Shown piece after piece: positions 27,951-31,036 of a stretch of DNA of 42,226 bases. The translations under genes and the position numbers were made by a program. The stretch lies in the NCBI GenBank assembly GCA_015055865.1, contig SVHK01000011.1, forward strand, positions 1-42,226. The letters run 5' to 3'. The notes under the pieces are model-generated. The model searched no databases. It worked only from the letters and a program-made list of their open reading frames with translations, and was not told the DNA's origin. Numbering within the stretch: the first letter of the stretch is position 1; each line of letters opens with the position of its first letter. This stretch comes from Clostridiales bacterium. GTDB lineage: Bacteria; Bacillota; Clostridia; Christensenellales; Borkfalkiaceae.

Positions 27951-28463
27951 ATGAGAATTATTCCGTATGATAGAGAAGCCGTCGTAGAATACGCAAGGCA
28001 ATGGGCGTATTCCCGTAATCCACAATATTATGATTTTTCTTCCATAGGCGGAGATTGTACGAACTTCGCATCGCAATGTTTGTTTGCCGGCTGTGGCGTA
28101 ATGAATTATACGCCGGATTTAGGTTGGTATTATCGCTCCGCTTTTGACCGCGCGGCGGCGTGGACGGGCGTTGAATACTTCTATCGTTTTTTGACGGAAA
28201 ACGCGAAAGGAGACGGCGTAGGCGACGGAGTAGGTCCGTTCGCTATCGAAGTCGGGATAGACGAACTTGAAATCGGTGATTTCGTACAACTTGGTCGTGA
28301 TACGGGGGATTTTTATCATACCCCTATCGTCGTAGGATTTTCGGGCGGAAATACTTTGGTTGCCGCGCATAGCTACGACGCTTTTAATCGACCGTTGACG
28401 AGCTATTCTTTTGATAGAATAAGGTGTTTGCACGTGTTAGGAGCACGTCGAAAGAACTACTAA
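27951..28463 (+). CDS. Amidase_6-type putative amidase, no signal peptide
   Basis: 170 residues. The segment YDREAVVEYARQWAYSRNPQY and the GGDCTNFASQCLFAGCGVMN segment with the candidate nucleophile Cys (near residue 31) are the hallmarks of the Amidase_6 (CHAP/NlpC-like) family of putative cell-wall hydrolases; a conserved His lies in HTPIVVGF near 124. No export signal or anchor is present. The ATG at 27951 has no ribosome site at normal distance: the only good one (AGGAGGA, about 27904) precedes a five-codon GTG reading frame ending at 27933. Another start, or coupling through that mini-ORF, is possible. Confidence 0.75.
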   Translation: MRIIPYDREAVVEYARQWAYSRNPQYYDFSSIGGDCTNFASQCLFAGCGVMNYTPDLGWYYRSAFDRAAAWTGVEYFYRFLTENAKGDGVGDGVGPFAIEVGIDELEIGDFVQLGRDTGDFYHTPIVVGFSGGNTLVAAHSYDAFNRPLTSYSFDRIRCLHVLGARRKNY

Positions 28464-28536
28464 AACTATAAAAAAAGGGCAAGAAAAAATTTTTTCAAAA
28501 AAATAAAAAAAAATTTGAAAAAGTAGTGAAAAACGC

Positions 28537-28565
28537 TTGCATTTTAAAAATAGATATGGTATAGT
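28537..28565 (+). promoter_or_regulatory. Promoter of the tRNA operon
   Basis: TTGCAT at 28537-28542, 17-bp spacer, TATAGT at 28560-28565, sixteen bases before the tRNA-Val gene. Confidence 0.8.
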
Positions 28566-28580
28566 ATATAAGCTTTCGAC

Positions 28581-28656
28581 GGAAGTTTAGCTCAGCTGGG
28601 AGAGCATCTGCCTTACAAGCAGAGGGTCATAGGTTCGAACCCTATAACTTCCACCA
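28581..28656 (+). tRNA. tRNA-Val (anticodon TAC), CCA encoded
   Basis: The acceptor stem GGAAGTT pairs with AACTTCC; the anticodon stem TCTGC/GCAGA encloses loop CTTACAA, giving TAC. The T-loop is GGTTCGAACC-like, and CCA is encoded at 28654-28656. Confidence 0.97.
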
Positions 28657-28660
28657 ATAA

Positions 28661-28776
28661 AAACAGTGCGGATAAATTATGCGGGAATAGCTCAGTGGTA
28701 GAGCGTCACCTTGCCAAGGTGAATGTCGCGGGTTCGAATCTCGTTTCCCGCTCCAAATATCCGTACTGTTTTTTTT
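28661..28776 (+). repeat. Inverted repeat enclosing tRNA-Gly, followed by a T-run
   Basis: AAACAGTGCGGATA (28661-28674) and TATCCGTACTGTTT (28759-28772) are complementary over 14 bp with one G-U pair. They flank the tRNA-Gly gene almost exactly, and T residues continue to 28776. Either a terminator whose loop is a whole tRNA, or a stem for tRNA processing. Confidence 0.75.
28681..28755 (+). tRNA. tRNA-Gly (anticodon GCC), CCA encoded
   Basis: Acceptor GCGGGAA/TTCCCGC, anticodon stem CACC/GGTG with loop TTGCCAA, anticodon GCC, CCA at 28753-28755. It sits inside a 14-bp inverted repeat. Confidence 0.97.
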
Positions 28777-28801
28777 AATTTCTTGCCGACGGACAGGGAA
28801 C

Positions 28802-28876
28802 GGCGCTATAGCCAAGTGGTAAGGCCAAGGTCTGCAAAACCTTTATTCCCCGGTTCAAATCCGGGTGGCGCCTCCA
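28802..28876 (+). tRNA. tRNA-Cys (anticodon GCA), CCA encoded
   Basis: Acceptor GGCGCTA/TGGCGCC, anticodon stem AAGGT with loop CTGCAAA giving GCA, discriminator U as expected for tRNA-Cys, CCA at 28874-28876. Confidence 0.96.
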
Positions 28877-28879
28877 GCG

Positions 28880-28914
28880 AACTCTGTACCTTTGCGGAAA
28901 GGTACAGAGTTTTC
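28880..28914 (+). terminator. Terminator-like hairpin between tRNA-Cys and tRNA-Leu
   Basis: A perfect 14-bp stem (28880-28893 with 28898-28911), GCGG loop and a short T-run. Only about 12 bases separate it from tRNA-Leu, which has no room for its own promoter, so the hairpin is either leaky or a processing element. Confidence 0.6.
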
Positions 28915-28925
28915 CGTAAAAAACC

Positions 28926-29012
28926 GCTCGTGTGGTGGAATAGGCAGACGCAAGGGACTTAAAATCCCTCGGTAGAGATACCGTGCCGGTTCAAGTCCGG
29001 CCACGAGCACCA
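28926..29012 (+). tRNA. tRNA-Leu (anticodon TAA), CCA encoded
   Basis: 87 bases with the long variable arm of tRNA-Leu. Acceptor GCTCGTG/CACGAGC, anticodon loop CTTAAAA giving TAA, CCA at 29010-29012. Its last 14 bases recur twice downstream. Confidence 0.97.
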
Positions 29013-29264
29013 AATAAGCGCCCCTTTTATGAAGGGGTGCTTATTTGGTATTTGAGCCCAATAACTTGAATACGTTACGGTTCAGAAAACGCTATCGTTT
29101 TCTTTGGTGTTTTACACCAAGCCCCGGCCACGAGCACCAAATAAGCACCCCTTTTGAAGGGGTGCTTATTTGGTAATTGCGCCCGCAAACTTGAAAACGC
29201 TACGGTTCAGAAAACGTTTGCGTTTTCTTTGGTGTTTTACACCAAGCCCCGGCCACGAGCACCA
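29013..29264 (+). repeat. Two tandem ~126-bp units each ending in a copy of the tRNA-Leu 3' end
   Basis: Unit 1 is 29013-29139 (127 bp) and unit 2 is 29140-29264 (125 bp). Each starts with a palindrome whose left arm continues from the preceding ACCA (AATAAGC...GCTTATTTGGT), has a linker, then two small hairpins (GAAAACG/CGTTTTC and GGTGT/ACACC), and ends in GGCCACGAGCACCA, identical to the tRNA-Leu end at 28999-29012. The units differ at about a dozen bases and one 2-base indel, nearly all in loops or linker. Confidence 0.92.
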
Positions 29265-29300
29265 CAAAAAAGCTGCCCTTGTTAGGGTAGCTTTTTTGTG
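29263..29300 (+). terminator. Terminator at the end of the tRNA-Leu repeat block
   Basis: A 17-bp stem (29263-29279 with 29284-29300, one G-U pair) with six T in its right arm. It is attached to the last tRNA 3'-end copy and is probably the original operon terminator. Confidence 0.85.
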
Positions 29301-29325
29301 ATTTTATCGAATGCTGGACGGACTT

Positions 29326-29365
29326 GAGTCATTTTGCGAGAGCAAAATGCTTTGCCTAAATAAAG
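29326..29365 (+). repeat. 40-bp hairpin motif, copy A
   Basis: Contains CATTTTGC-GAGA-GCAAAATG followed by CTTTGCC. About 34 of 40 bases match copy B near the tmRNA gene (30451-30490, minus strand), and a stem pair differs in a compensated way (A-T here, G-C there). Confidence 0.8.
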
Positions 29366-29422
29366 AAGATTTATGGATAAATGATTTGTCTTATACGTTG
29401 TAAAATTTAAGCAAATAAAAAA

Positions 29423-29460
29423 TCAAACGCCTTGCGGAAAACTTTCCGCAAGGCGTTTGA
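29423..29460 (-). terminator. Terminator downstream of the small minus-strand operon
   Basis: A perfect 18-bp inverted repeat (29423-29440 with 29443-29460). On the minus strand it is followed by a run of T; the plus side has none. Confidence 0.75.
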
Positions 29461-29599
29461 GATTATTGATAGGATAAGAATTATTTATCGCTTATTTCCA
29501 GATAAGGCAGTTCATAAGGAAAAATCAAATAAAAGCACGGAATCCTTGAAAGTCCACGCTTTCTTTGGTGGGAAGAGAGTAATGTAAGATGAACCGCTT

Positions 29600-29881
29600 T
29601 TATTTCCTAAATAAATCCTTAAATTCTTTCACGAGCTTTTGGTCGGCAACCGAACCCGAAATCACGCGAAAGTCTTCTTGTTTAATTTCGATAACAGGTT
29701 GGATACTTTTTCCTGTAAAGGGGTTATAAAAATCCGCAACAATAAAACCGCGTTCTGCAATTAAATTTTCCATTACTACTCCAATATATCCTTGAAACAA
29801 TCCTTCATTTACATAATTATCATTTAATAAAATAATTGCATCCATTTCTTCCACTAATTCATTGTTTTGATATTTATTCAT
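29600..29881 (-). CDS. Hypothetical protein, 93 aa (DUF4926-like fold possible)
   Basis: An acidic 93-residue protein with alternating short beta segments. The layout (DAIILLNDNYVNEGL, then GYIGVVMENL, then IEIKQEDFRVI) recalls the small SH3-like DUF4926 group, whose members are often annotated near toxins as possible immunity proteins; this resemblance is weak. There is a good ribosome site (AAGGAG) before the ATG. A 42-residue reading frame ends just upstream on the same strand, so the two form a small operon. No toxin gene is visible next to it. Confidence 0.65.
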   Translation of the reverse strand: MNKYQNNELVEEMDAIILLNDNYVNEGLFQGYIGVVMENLIAERGFIVADFYNPFTGKSIQPVIEIKQEDFRVISGSVADQKLVKEFKDLFRK

Positions 29882-29894
29882 AATTTTTTCTCCT

Positions 29895-30023
29895 TAATAG
29901 CTATGTCCTGAATAAGGGGTAACAAGTTCTATGTTACCTTTTTGACCTAATTTCCATATCGTCTTTTTTTAACGATAAAAAGTTTTTTAGTAATTTTTCC
30001 GTTATTTCGTTTAGTAACCCCAT
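29895..30023 (-). CDS. Small protein, 42 aa, unknown
   Basis: Reading the minus strand, ATG at 30023-30021 follows AAAGGAG at good distance, and the frame stays open for 42 codons to TAA at 29897-29895, directly before the ribosome site of the 93-residue gene. The product starts MGLLNEITEKLLKNFL, an amphipathic helix, and ends IELVTPYSGHSY. A good promoter and a 5' hairpin lie upstream. I do not recognise it; the C-terminal segment could be a remnant of a larger protein. Confidence 0.5.
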
Positions 30024-30045
30024 TATATCATACTCCTTTAAATAA

Positions 30046-30083
30046 GGCAAACAAACGAACCCGCTCGGATTCGTTTGTTTGCC
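30046..30083 (-). promoter_or_regulatory. Hairpin at the 5' end of the small operon mRNA
   Basis: GGCAAACAAACGAA and TTCGTTTGTTTGCC form a perfect 14-bp stem (30046-30059 with 30070-30083) with a ten-base loop. The expected transcription start lies at about 30080, so the hairpin would cap the 5' end. No T-run follows, so it is not a terminator in this direction. Confidence 0.6.
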
Positions 30084-30085
30084 AC

Positions 30086-30113
30086 AGTATAACATACTTT
30101 TTTGTTTTGTCAA
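30086..30113 (-). promoter_or_regulatory. Promoter of the small minus-strand operon
   Basis: On the minus strand TTGACA (30113-30108), a 16-bp spacer and TATACT (30091-30086). Confidence 0.7.
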
Positions 30114-30357
30114 CAGGGTACTGTCAACTTTTTACCATTTTAGTATATTTTTATAAAAAATAACCTAAATTGAAAAAATCAATTTAGGTCTAAGTTGGTG
30201 GACTTGGGCGTGTGTAATATGCACCGAGTACACCAAATATTATTAGGGCTCCCAAAAATATTTTGCTTGTTAAAAGATTTTTGGGAAAAAGGAGAAGCAG
30301 GCTTATAGGTCAAGCCGTTGCAATAGCAACGGTGGACAAAATAGCCTTGCTTCGACG

Positions 30358-30377
30358 TGGTGGAGATGGTGGGAGTT
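30358..30377 (-). repeat. Second copy of the tmRNA 3' end (20 bp)
   Basis: These 20 bases are identical to 30563-30582, the last 20 bases of the tmRNA gene including CCA. Identity stops sharply on the gene-internal side. Spacing is 205 bp. Confidence 0.9.
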
Positions 30378-30450
30378 TCGCCTTTAGCGGCGCGCCCCGC
30401 TCCGACGTTCTTAACGTCGTCCTTTGCCGTGTAACTTTTCGAAAAAGTTG

Positions 30451-30490
30451 CTGAATTTGGGCAAAGCGTTTTGCTCTCGCAAAACGGCTC
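30451..30490 (-). repeat. 40-bp hairpin motif, copy B
   Basis: On the minus strand it reads CGTTTTGC-GAGA-GCAAAACG followed by CTTTGCC. It matches copy A at 29326-29365 with the stem pair changed from A-T to G-C. Confidence 0.8.
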
Positions 30491-30531
30491 CCACCCTCAA
30501 CTCCCACCAAGTATTCGTAAATCTAAAAAAA

Positions 30532-30560
30532 TAAAAAGCTCATAAGAGCTTTTTTATTTT
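30532..30560 (-). terminator. tmRNA terminator
   Basis: On the minus strand, AAAAAGCTCTTATGAGCTTTTT-like inverted repeat followed by a long T-run, directly after the tmRNA CCA end. Confidence 0.8.
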
Positions 30561-30562
30561 TT

Positions 30563-30926
30563 TGGTGGAGATGGTGGGAGTTGAACCCACGTCTTACTCG
30601 GCTGCCAAAAAACTTTCTACATACTTAGTTTATCTATTATTTCTTAAATTATAAACGCGGGTAAACACGCTTTTATAATCGCAGAAAGCTAAATACTTTT
30701 ATAAAAACACTTTCCGATTTTTATAAAAGTGTTCCGTCTTGTTGACGCCACGACCCCGACCGACGGATAAATCAGGCGTGACGTTTCGTTAATAAACGAA
30801 GTTACGCTGCAAGAGCGTATGCATTATTATTTGCATTTAAATTTAGGTGGAATGTTTTATCGCAGTCACTCCGTCTGCGGTATGCTTATCCTTTCGCTCA
30901 CCGGCAATCGAATCCGGTGCATCCCC
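30563..30926 (-). ncRNA. ssrA: Transfer-messenger RNA
   Basis: The 5' end GGGGATG pairs with CATCTCC before A-CCA to form the alanine-type acceptor stem, and the 3' side carries a GGGTTCAACTCCC T-arm. Inside, the tag reading frame at 30834-30802 encodes ANNNAYALAA and a stop (preceded by the Ala brought by the tmRNA itself), the usual degradation tag ending. It rescues stalled ribosomes together with SmpB. A TATAAT on the minus strand at 30941-30936 gives the expected start near 30928. Confidence 0.97.
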
Positions 30927-30989
30927 GTATATTTTATTATACACCCGTTTTCCGCTCTTTAAAACACTTTTTTCGTTAGTAAATTTTGG

Positions 30990-31036
30990 ATAGGGCAGAG
31001 TTGCGATGAATTTAAAATGAATAGGGCAGGGTTGCG
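30990..31036. repeat. Short direct repeat upstream of the tmRNA gene
   Basis: ATAGGGCAGAGTTGCG (30990-31005) and ATAGGGCAGGGTTGCG (31021-31036) are 31 bp apart and differ at one base. It lies between the rplL terminator and the tmRNA promoter; function unknown. Confidence 0.6.

Follow-up and report, generated by a model that had tools for sequence, protein, structure and literature searches.

What are the two short units that stand in tandem directly behind a tRNA-Leu gene of an uncultured gut Clostridiales bacterium (Christensenellales, Borkfalkiaceae; contig SVHK01000011.1), each of them closing with another copy of the tRNA's own 3′ end, CCA included? The window, meaning the whole stretch of 42,226 nucleotides that was analysed, carries a tRNA cluster in the order Val-Gly-Cys-Leu (28581–29012), in which ARAGORN places tRNA-Leu as the last gene. 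The features of the locus are as follows.

28926–29012, plus strand: tRNA-Leu(taa), i.e., tRNA-Leu(UAA), the host gene (ARAGORN; Rfam tRNA)
29009–29049, plus strand: hairpin of unit 1, whose left arm begins in the ACCA of tRNA-Leu (inverted repeat; folding)
29013–29139, plus strand: repeat unit 1, 127 nt, with a terminator-like hairpin, inverted and direct T-arm pieces, two hairpins, and a tRNA 3′-end copy (sequence, repeats, folding)
29064–29070, plus strand: ACTTGAA in unit 1, an inverted T-loop/T-stem piece of tRNA-Leu (sequence)
29078–29084, plus strand: CGGTTCA in unit 1, which repeats the T arm's 5′ half in direct orientation, with the hairpins coming where the tRNA has TTCA^AG (sequence)
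29085–29102, plus strand: hairpin A of unit 1, GAAAACG/CGTTTTC (inverted repeat; folding)
29104–29120, plus strand: hairpin B of unit 1, TTGGTGT/ACACCAA (folding)
29124–29139, plus strand: first copy of the tRNA-Leu 3′ end, including CCA (direct repeat)
29136–29174, plus strand: counterpart in unit 2 of the hairpin that starts in ACCA (inverted repeat; folding)
29140–29264, plus strand: repeat unit 2, 125 nt, laid out as unit 1 (sequence, repeats, folding)
29249–29264, plus strand: second copy of the tRNA-Leu 3′ end, including CCA (direct repeat)
29263–29300, plus strand: terminator-like hairpin after the last CCA (inverted repeat; folding)

An earlier note on this DNA, made from its letters alone, had described two units of 127 and 125 bp that end in the same 14 bases as tRNA-Leu. 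The units and their lengths are confirmed, and the suffix common to the gene and both units turns out to be 16 nt long (CCGGCCACGAGCACCA, at 28997–29012, 29124–29139, and 29249–29264). The claim that the palindrome at the start of each unit draws on the preceding ACCA for its left arm agrees with the hairpins at 29009–29049 and 29136–29174. Some dozen substitutions had also been noted, sparing the stems except for one G-U that became A-U. The recount gives 11 substitutions and one 2-nt indel, with the final 44 nt identical between the units, and changes fall at 1 of the 58 positions of unit 1 that the analyst assigned to stems (the G-U to A-U change) versus 10 of the 69 others (Fisher p = 0.011). 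Relative to shuffled sequences, folding gave z scores of −5.9 (29013–29139), −7.0 (29009–29135), and −5.7 (29138–29262). No ORF of at least 80 aa occurs between 28463 and 29600, in keeping with the remark that the units are too small for an integrase. Since the two Leu units are 87–90% identical throughout, they look like duplicates of each other and not like two independent insertions, and their sequences make the pair look like a tandem duplication of one cassette of the tRNA-linked repeat (TLR) type. Further downstream, a perfect 18-bp inverted repeat (29423–29460) lies between the tRNA cluster and a convergent gene at 29600–29881, and is perhaps that gene's terminator.

Within its own genome (G000; 1.43 Mb in 51 contigs, 94% complete), the full Leu unit is found at this locus only. 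Its exact end had no match in the genome contigs searched, and the Leu units had none in the phage records searched. A pattern for hairpin B matched 15 times in the own genome versus 9 times for a backward control, two of the 15 being the known ones. The suspicion that the unit might occur only here, with no copies at other RNA genes, was half right: this unit does occur only here, and the kind occurs elsewhere too. In the own genome, for example, two tRNA-Thr genes and one tRNA-Ser gene are also followed by repeats of their own 3′ ends.

Copies behind other tRNA genes, which the earlier note had suggested counting, were surveyed in ten genomes (the own genome plus tRNA flanks from nine of the same genus) by taking each cluster-final tRNA with at least 150 nt downstream and looking for its own 15-nt end within 450 nt at no more than two mismatches; ends from other isotypes, differing at six or more of the 15 positions, served as swapped controls. 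Among those of the listed matches that were used, the kind recurs: the tRNA's own 3′ end comes again downstream of 22 of 80 cluster-final tRNAs, versus 0 of 5144 swapped comparisons on the same flanks, and the own end lies behind 1 of 102 non-final tRNAs. The hosts of the 22 repeats are tRNA-Thr (nine), Lys (three), Tyr (three), Leu (two), Trp (two), Ala (two), and Ser (one). Units are mostly 97–206 nt long, with up to four in tandem (tRNA-Lys, G037); the listed segments outside that range are two longer ones, in which internal copies were missed, and one 46-nt piece.

Several of these flanks show further peculiarities. Two tandem tRNA-Val-like genes precede an intact tRNA-Val in G000 (L038:1201–1580, contig C44), their T loops split between TTCG and AGCC by a double hairpin of about 46 nt, and these could be pseudo-tRNAs or processed RNAs. 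Behind tRNA-Trp at L092 (G048, contig C4) and L075 (G037, contig C7) stand three tandem degenerate tRNA-Trp copies of about 97 nt and about 107 nt each, respectively, every one with its own terminator-like hairpin. At L036, L039, and L027 of G000, the strand opposite the flanks of tRNA-Glu, tRNA-Pro, and tRNA-Lys appears on visual inspection to code for stretches that resemble one another and the C-terminal part of an integrase. Finally, contigs C4, C5, C24, and C35 of G000, as well as contigs of G037, G041, and G029, stop no more than about 500 nt from a tRNA gene, as might be expected if tail repeats break assemblies.

The window itself holds a second host gene and two further repeats, which belong to another core type, class II.

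30563–30926, minus strand: tmRNA, the second host gene in the window (ARAGORN; Rfam)
30358–30510, minus strand: intact class II repeat behind tmRNA, with the 3′ end of tmRNA copied in its closing stem and in its CTCCACCA tail (match to class II profile R1 at 30366–30510, 122.2 bits)
29313–29361, plus strand: left end of a broken class II remnant, with an inverted tRNA-Leu 3′ end (29315–29327) and part of a hairpin (29332–29361) (inverted repeat; comparison with class II)

The remnant scores at best 50.1 bits against the class II set, and 120 control pieces of the window reach no more than 30.2. The class II copy at 30366–30510 is not covered by any Rfam 15 match up to E 5; two weak matches overlap its first 13–14 nt, on the tmRNA side.

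In this bacterial family, cassettes of at least three core types, sorted by eye, stand behind many tRNA genes and tmRNA. The class I layout consists of inverted and direct T-arm halves, GTTCGCGCGAG, a variable part, a hairpin, and then the tail. A profile built from 12 class I sequences (R2) matches 60 of 301 genomes at E 0.0001, including 48 of the 57 within the genus. RNAalifold returned three pairs only for the class I alignment, and no covariation is therefore claimed for this type. The Leu units have a compact form of the class I layout (ACTTGAA, CGGTTCA, two hairpins, and tail). They reach no more than 2.2 bits against R2 with filters off, the best R2 score in 28500–31000 being 7.0 bits at 30312–30331, and R1 does not match them at E 0.0001 with default filters; membership of the Leu units in either profile family is accordingly rejected, and it is the layout alone that they have in common. 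The compact module, GAAAACG(4)CGTTTTCTTTG, occurs in 5 of 57 same-genus genomes. It lies behind tRNA-Glu in G027 (L012), splits a tRNA-Glu-like T arm at a contig end in G011, and sits within palindromic intergenic repeats in G015, where no tRNA was called in the 3-kb loci. At L010 and L018 of G015 (contig C9), the compact hairpin module splits intergenic GATTGCCAC..GTGGCAATC repeats, by eye at CG^AGC. Other core types were found at some tRNA-Thr and tRNA-Trp loci.

Class II is the best-preserved repeat family, and its covariation is strong. Without the terminator, a copy measures about 145 nt and comprises an inverted host 3′ end, GGGTGGGAG, hairpins, CGGGGCG..CGCTAAAGG, and a direct copy of the host end. 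Six class II sequences support five helices, in which 19 of 39 pairs are changed on both sides versus at most four in slid controls, the structure having been drawn from those same sequences. On 92 chosen sources, R1 gave 100 matches, 98 of them distinct; 94.6% of the cells of these 100 rows are paired and 35 of 37 pairs are changed on both sides, with 760 such cells versus at most 143 in slid controls, counts that lean toward the structure because the rows were aligned to the model. At E 0.001, R1 matches 77 of 301 genomes, including the own genome, 47 of the 57 in the genus, and members of 9 of 97 genera, and all 77 genomes fall in one family. In an order-wide draw, the 22 of 396 genomes with a match were all of that same family. 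Copies number three in G000 and up to ten in one genome (G177). At the Rfam gathering level, the class II repeats of L142, L160, and L170 match nothing, and one exact class II core variant had no match in viral contigs.

In 53 of the 100 class II matches a tRNA or tmRNA lies 33–58 nt upstream (within a limit of 30–60 nt; median 51, about the length of one terminator), and 49 of these 53 have a matching tail and 4 a decayed one. A further 13 have a tRNA further upstream together with a tail copy somewhere upstream, 12 have an upstream tail copy and no intact gene called, two have a gene further upstream and a decayed tail, and four have less than 120 nt of upstream sequence. The remaining 16 show neither a host gene nor a tail copy upstream, and an Rfam scan of these loci at the gathering threshold turned up no RNA gene. 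The close hosts are tRNA-Ser (19), Leu (13), Pro (8), Thr (3), Val (2), Gln (2), Gly (2), Lys (1), and Arg (1), and tmRNA (2). Tails are 18–22 nt long and, in many rows, have one to three mismatches to the host.

Both ends of a class II copy are matched to its host, and the closing stem is formed by the copied tRNA end paired with an inverted copy of that same end. Of 12 possible pairs, a left arm forms 11.1 with the right arm of its own row and 8.1 with the arms of other rows; for the 6 positions on the acceptor side, which vary among tRNAs, the values are 5.4 and 3.2. CCA follows close behind the closing stem in 84 of the 100 matches. The other 16, of which one is truncated at the end of its contig and one is matched only in part, still have 10.6 stem pairs on average. 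The cores, by comparison, are tied to neither host nor genome. Among 60 rows of the genus, mean core identity is 0.796 within a genome at other hosts, 0.801 between genomes at the same tail, and 0.814 otherwise, and neither label brings cores closer than shuffled labels do, although cores near 80% identity throughout may make this test insensitive. In G177, identical 113-nt cores lie at two loci with different tRNA ends, the left and right arms differing between the loci and each fitting its own; core-only gene conversion or a recent copy could explain this pattern. The repeat at L192 combines a left arm that suits tRNA-Leu with a tail that suits the tRNA-Ser of L167, and judged by these two ends it is a recombinant through the core.

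The stretch following a unit often resembles the stretch following the tRNA, with at least 80% identity at 20 of 50 loci versus 12 of 2450 swaps. At no fewer than 10 of those 20 loci another unit, or its left end, comes next, and tandem duplication therefore explains part of the excess. One site shows precise presence and absence. Where G035 has tRNA-Phe, CAC, and tRNA-Thr, G027 has, inserted between CCA and CAC to the nucleotide, a class I unit of 183 nt that ends in CCCCAAGGCACCA; in four other genomes the gap between tRNA-Phe and tRNA-Thr has other lengths. Gain of the unit and its clean loss by recombination between direct repeats fit this site equally. At a different set of loci (L141, L155, L161, and L166), the 3′ part of a tRNA alone precedes the repeat, as if an element had split the tRNA and its end had been left with the repeat. 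In one of these, L166 (G177, contig C6), a longer palindromic repeat lies in direct copies on either side of the tRNA-end fragment and the repeat. The suggestion of the earlier note, either insertion of a small element at the CCA end or amplification of a structured RNA, comes near the mark, given the recurrence behind tRNAs and tmRNA, the precise presence and absence between G035 and G027, and the covariation; for the Leu pair, "inserted twice" looks less apt than duplication.

The closest known counterparts are the tRNA-linked repeats of E. coli, which were reportedly described in 1978. As far as the available excerpts of PMC8144298 (2021) go, those of strain K-12 amount to 22 genes at ten loci, their 3′ 18–19 bp are identical to the upstream tRNA or rRNA, and their function was not known before that paper. 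The same excerpts place RrA, RrB, and RrF, the TLRs behind 5S rRNA, between two terminators, with transcription by read-through of the first and with binding to Hfq and CsrA; two terminators, and an end that copies the 3′ end of the upstream RNA, are features they have in common with the cassettes described here. In excerpts of other papers, rttR is counted among sRNAs with REP-like sequences (PMC12306157) and a motif in RtT RNA is named (PMC7657543).

A sample of eight tRNA regions and one rRNA region of K-12 was compared directly. Four of these tRNA regions (tyr, argQ/argZ, lysV, and the lysT operon) contain tail copies, with tandem copies at offsets 159, 337, and 515 behind tyrV. As in class II, host-matched closing stems from an inverted copy are seen at tyr and lys loci: the fold of the tyr units is closed by an inverted tRNA-end copy, GGGGAAGGAT/ATCCTTCCCC, and behind lysT, lysW, lysY, and lysZ an inverted copy of ten nt with one mismatch does the same. 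The excerpts of PMC8144298 do not mention this E. coli closing stem. The arg units have a weaker inverted copy (3–4 mismatches in 14), and lysV and lysQ have none, presenting instead a terminator, an inverted and a direct T arm, and then the core. For rrnB, a short script found no inverted 5S copy and missed the published 5S copy too, which makes that comparison weak.

Taken as a whole, the E. coli TLRs (rttR; Rfam RF00391, RtT) resemble the present cassettes in standing behind tRNA genes, in closing each unit with a CCA-bearing copy of the tRNA end, and in their tandem copies; they differ in their core sequences, and tmRNA is also a host here. The Leu units lie behind a tRNA gene on the same strand, as TLRs do behind tRNA or rRNA genes. 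TLRs number one to five copies per locus at several loci per genome, and here the Leu locus has two copies and the tRNA-Lys locus of G037 has four. The TLR 3′ end has 18–19 bp identical to the upstream gene; the Leu units share 16 nt with theirs, and class II tails of 18–22 nt carry one to three mismatches in many rows. R1 matches the E. coli tyr units in the closing stem only (E 0.074–0.1), and this proves nothing by itself since a terminator hairpin from the rRNA region does equally well (0.081). Conversely, Rfam RtT matched the E. coli tyr and lysT-operon repeats (L226 and L234) as a positive control, matched 0 of 61 genomes here and none of the class II loci L142, L160, and L170, and is absent among the matches listed for window positions 28500–31000 up to E 5. 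By their layout, the E. coli TLRs and these cassettes are of the same kind; common descent would be a separate matter.

Other short elements offer looser parallels. REP/BIME repeats are short, intergenic, and palindromic, and the compact module likewise occurs in the palindromic intergenic repeats of G015, but the ends here are matched to the particular tRNA gene that acts as host. Duplication of the tRNA 3′ end is also a trait of integrative elements that attach at tRNA genes. Unlike these, the units here have no ORF of at least 80 aa (28463–29600) that could encode a recombinase, and the class II structure covaries.

The layout, the distribution, the host-matched ends, the covariation of one core type, and one presence/absence site are established. 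The reading that we prefer, at a probability of roughly 0.7, is that these are TLR-type cassettes, gained or lost precisely after CCA and probably read through and processed as small RNAs. Each cassette would consist of a terminator-like hairpin, a folded module, and a CCA-bearing copy of the host tRNA 3′ end, placed directly after the host CCA. Cassettes would be transcribed by read-through and cut out as small RNAs with a 3′ end mimicking that of a tRNA. We propose that recombination between direct repeats would keep the right arm identical to the tRNA, and that fold-back copying between the inverted arms would keep the left arm. A bolder and rather doubtful version makes the cassette a bacterial counterpart of the tRNA-tailed SINE, copying itself behind new tRNA genes with no element-borne enzyme and rewriting both arms, such that on landing the right arm would become a direct copy and the left arm an inverted copy of the new host's end. 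A reverse transcriptase (PF00078) was found in G037, G177, and G226 and not in the other five of the eight genomes searched (G000, G027, G035, G041, and G231), all of them carriers and incomplete. A resident reverse transcriptase therefore seems not to be needed, with the caveat of incompleteness, and a retro-copy route is disfavoured.

It is conceivable, with the odds against it, that the repeats are simply selfish DNA, that is, small non-autonomous elements with tRNA 3′ ends as their targets, which would fold as single-stranded DNA while being transferred or replicated and whose RNA would have no role. The independence of core identity from host gene and genome (0.796, 0.801, and 0.814), the unit present in G027 and absent from G035, and the identical 113-nt cores of G177 behind two tRNA ends, with both arms matched to each locus, all accord with mobility, although gene conversion of the core would yield the G177 pattern as well. 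In the internal helices, 29 wobble cells are G-T and 14 A-C, a strand bias that is weak, in cells that are not independent, and with which folding as DNA is thus compatible. Against selfish DNA, no linked enzyme was found in a search for reverse transcriptase alone (the five incomplete genomes above lack PF00078), the exact class II core variant is without a match in viral contigs, and ends that vary with the host gene leave no fixed terminal sequence for a transposase to recognize.

An origin as scars of integrated elements, in which integrases left attL/attR-like duplications of tRNA ends, appears improbable. Integrases that target tRNA genes duplicate this very segment, and the stretch from T loop to CCA, which is the usual attachment core, is what the direct repeats span; moreover, a tRNA 3′ half stands alone before some repeats (L141, L155, and L161). 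Neither five covarying helices nor an inverted tRNA end would be expected from that origin, the covariation weakens it, the units are mostly 97–206 nt, and the Leu locus has no ORF of 80 aa or more (28463–29600). Least credible of all is an account confined to the tRNA-Leu locus, either a simple tandem duplication in place or an assembly artefact. It would suit the restriction of the full unit to this locus in the own genome, but of the 11 positions at which the units differ ten are outside stems, and the same layout recurs at tRNA-Thr, Ser, and Val genes in the own genome and its relatives. Differences that spare stems, together with folding below that of shuffled sequences, are not a pattern that an assembly artefact would give. 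As a full account, an artefact or an isolated duplication is rejected by the 22 of 80 versus 0 of 5144 in the tail survey, among the matches listed.

For the biology of the family, then, the preferred TLR-type reading means that the kind of element, on sequence comparison, is already known from E. coli, and that the cores and the class II family found here differ from the known ones. Judged by its layout, the Leu pair is a compact and modest member, and its interest lies in the family that it revealed. A TLR layout in a distant phylum, with covariation and several copies per genome, provides comparative material that E. coli alone lacks. The closing stem built from the host tRNA's end is a testable core feature, and comparison across the family indicates which parts should matter for processing, tRNA maturation, or spread. 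If the SINE-like reading were true, the occurrence of the same host-tailored stem in E. coli would point to an ancient, or repeatedly evolved, life on tRNA genes.
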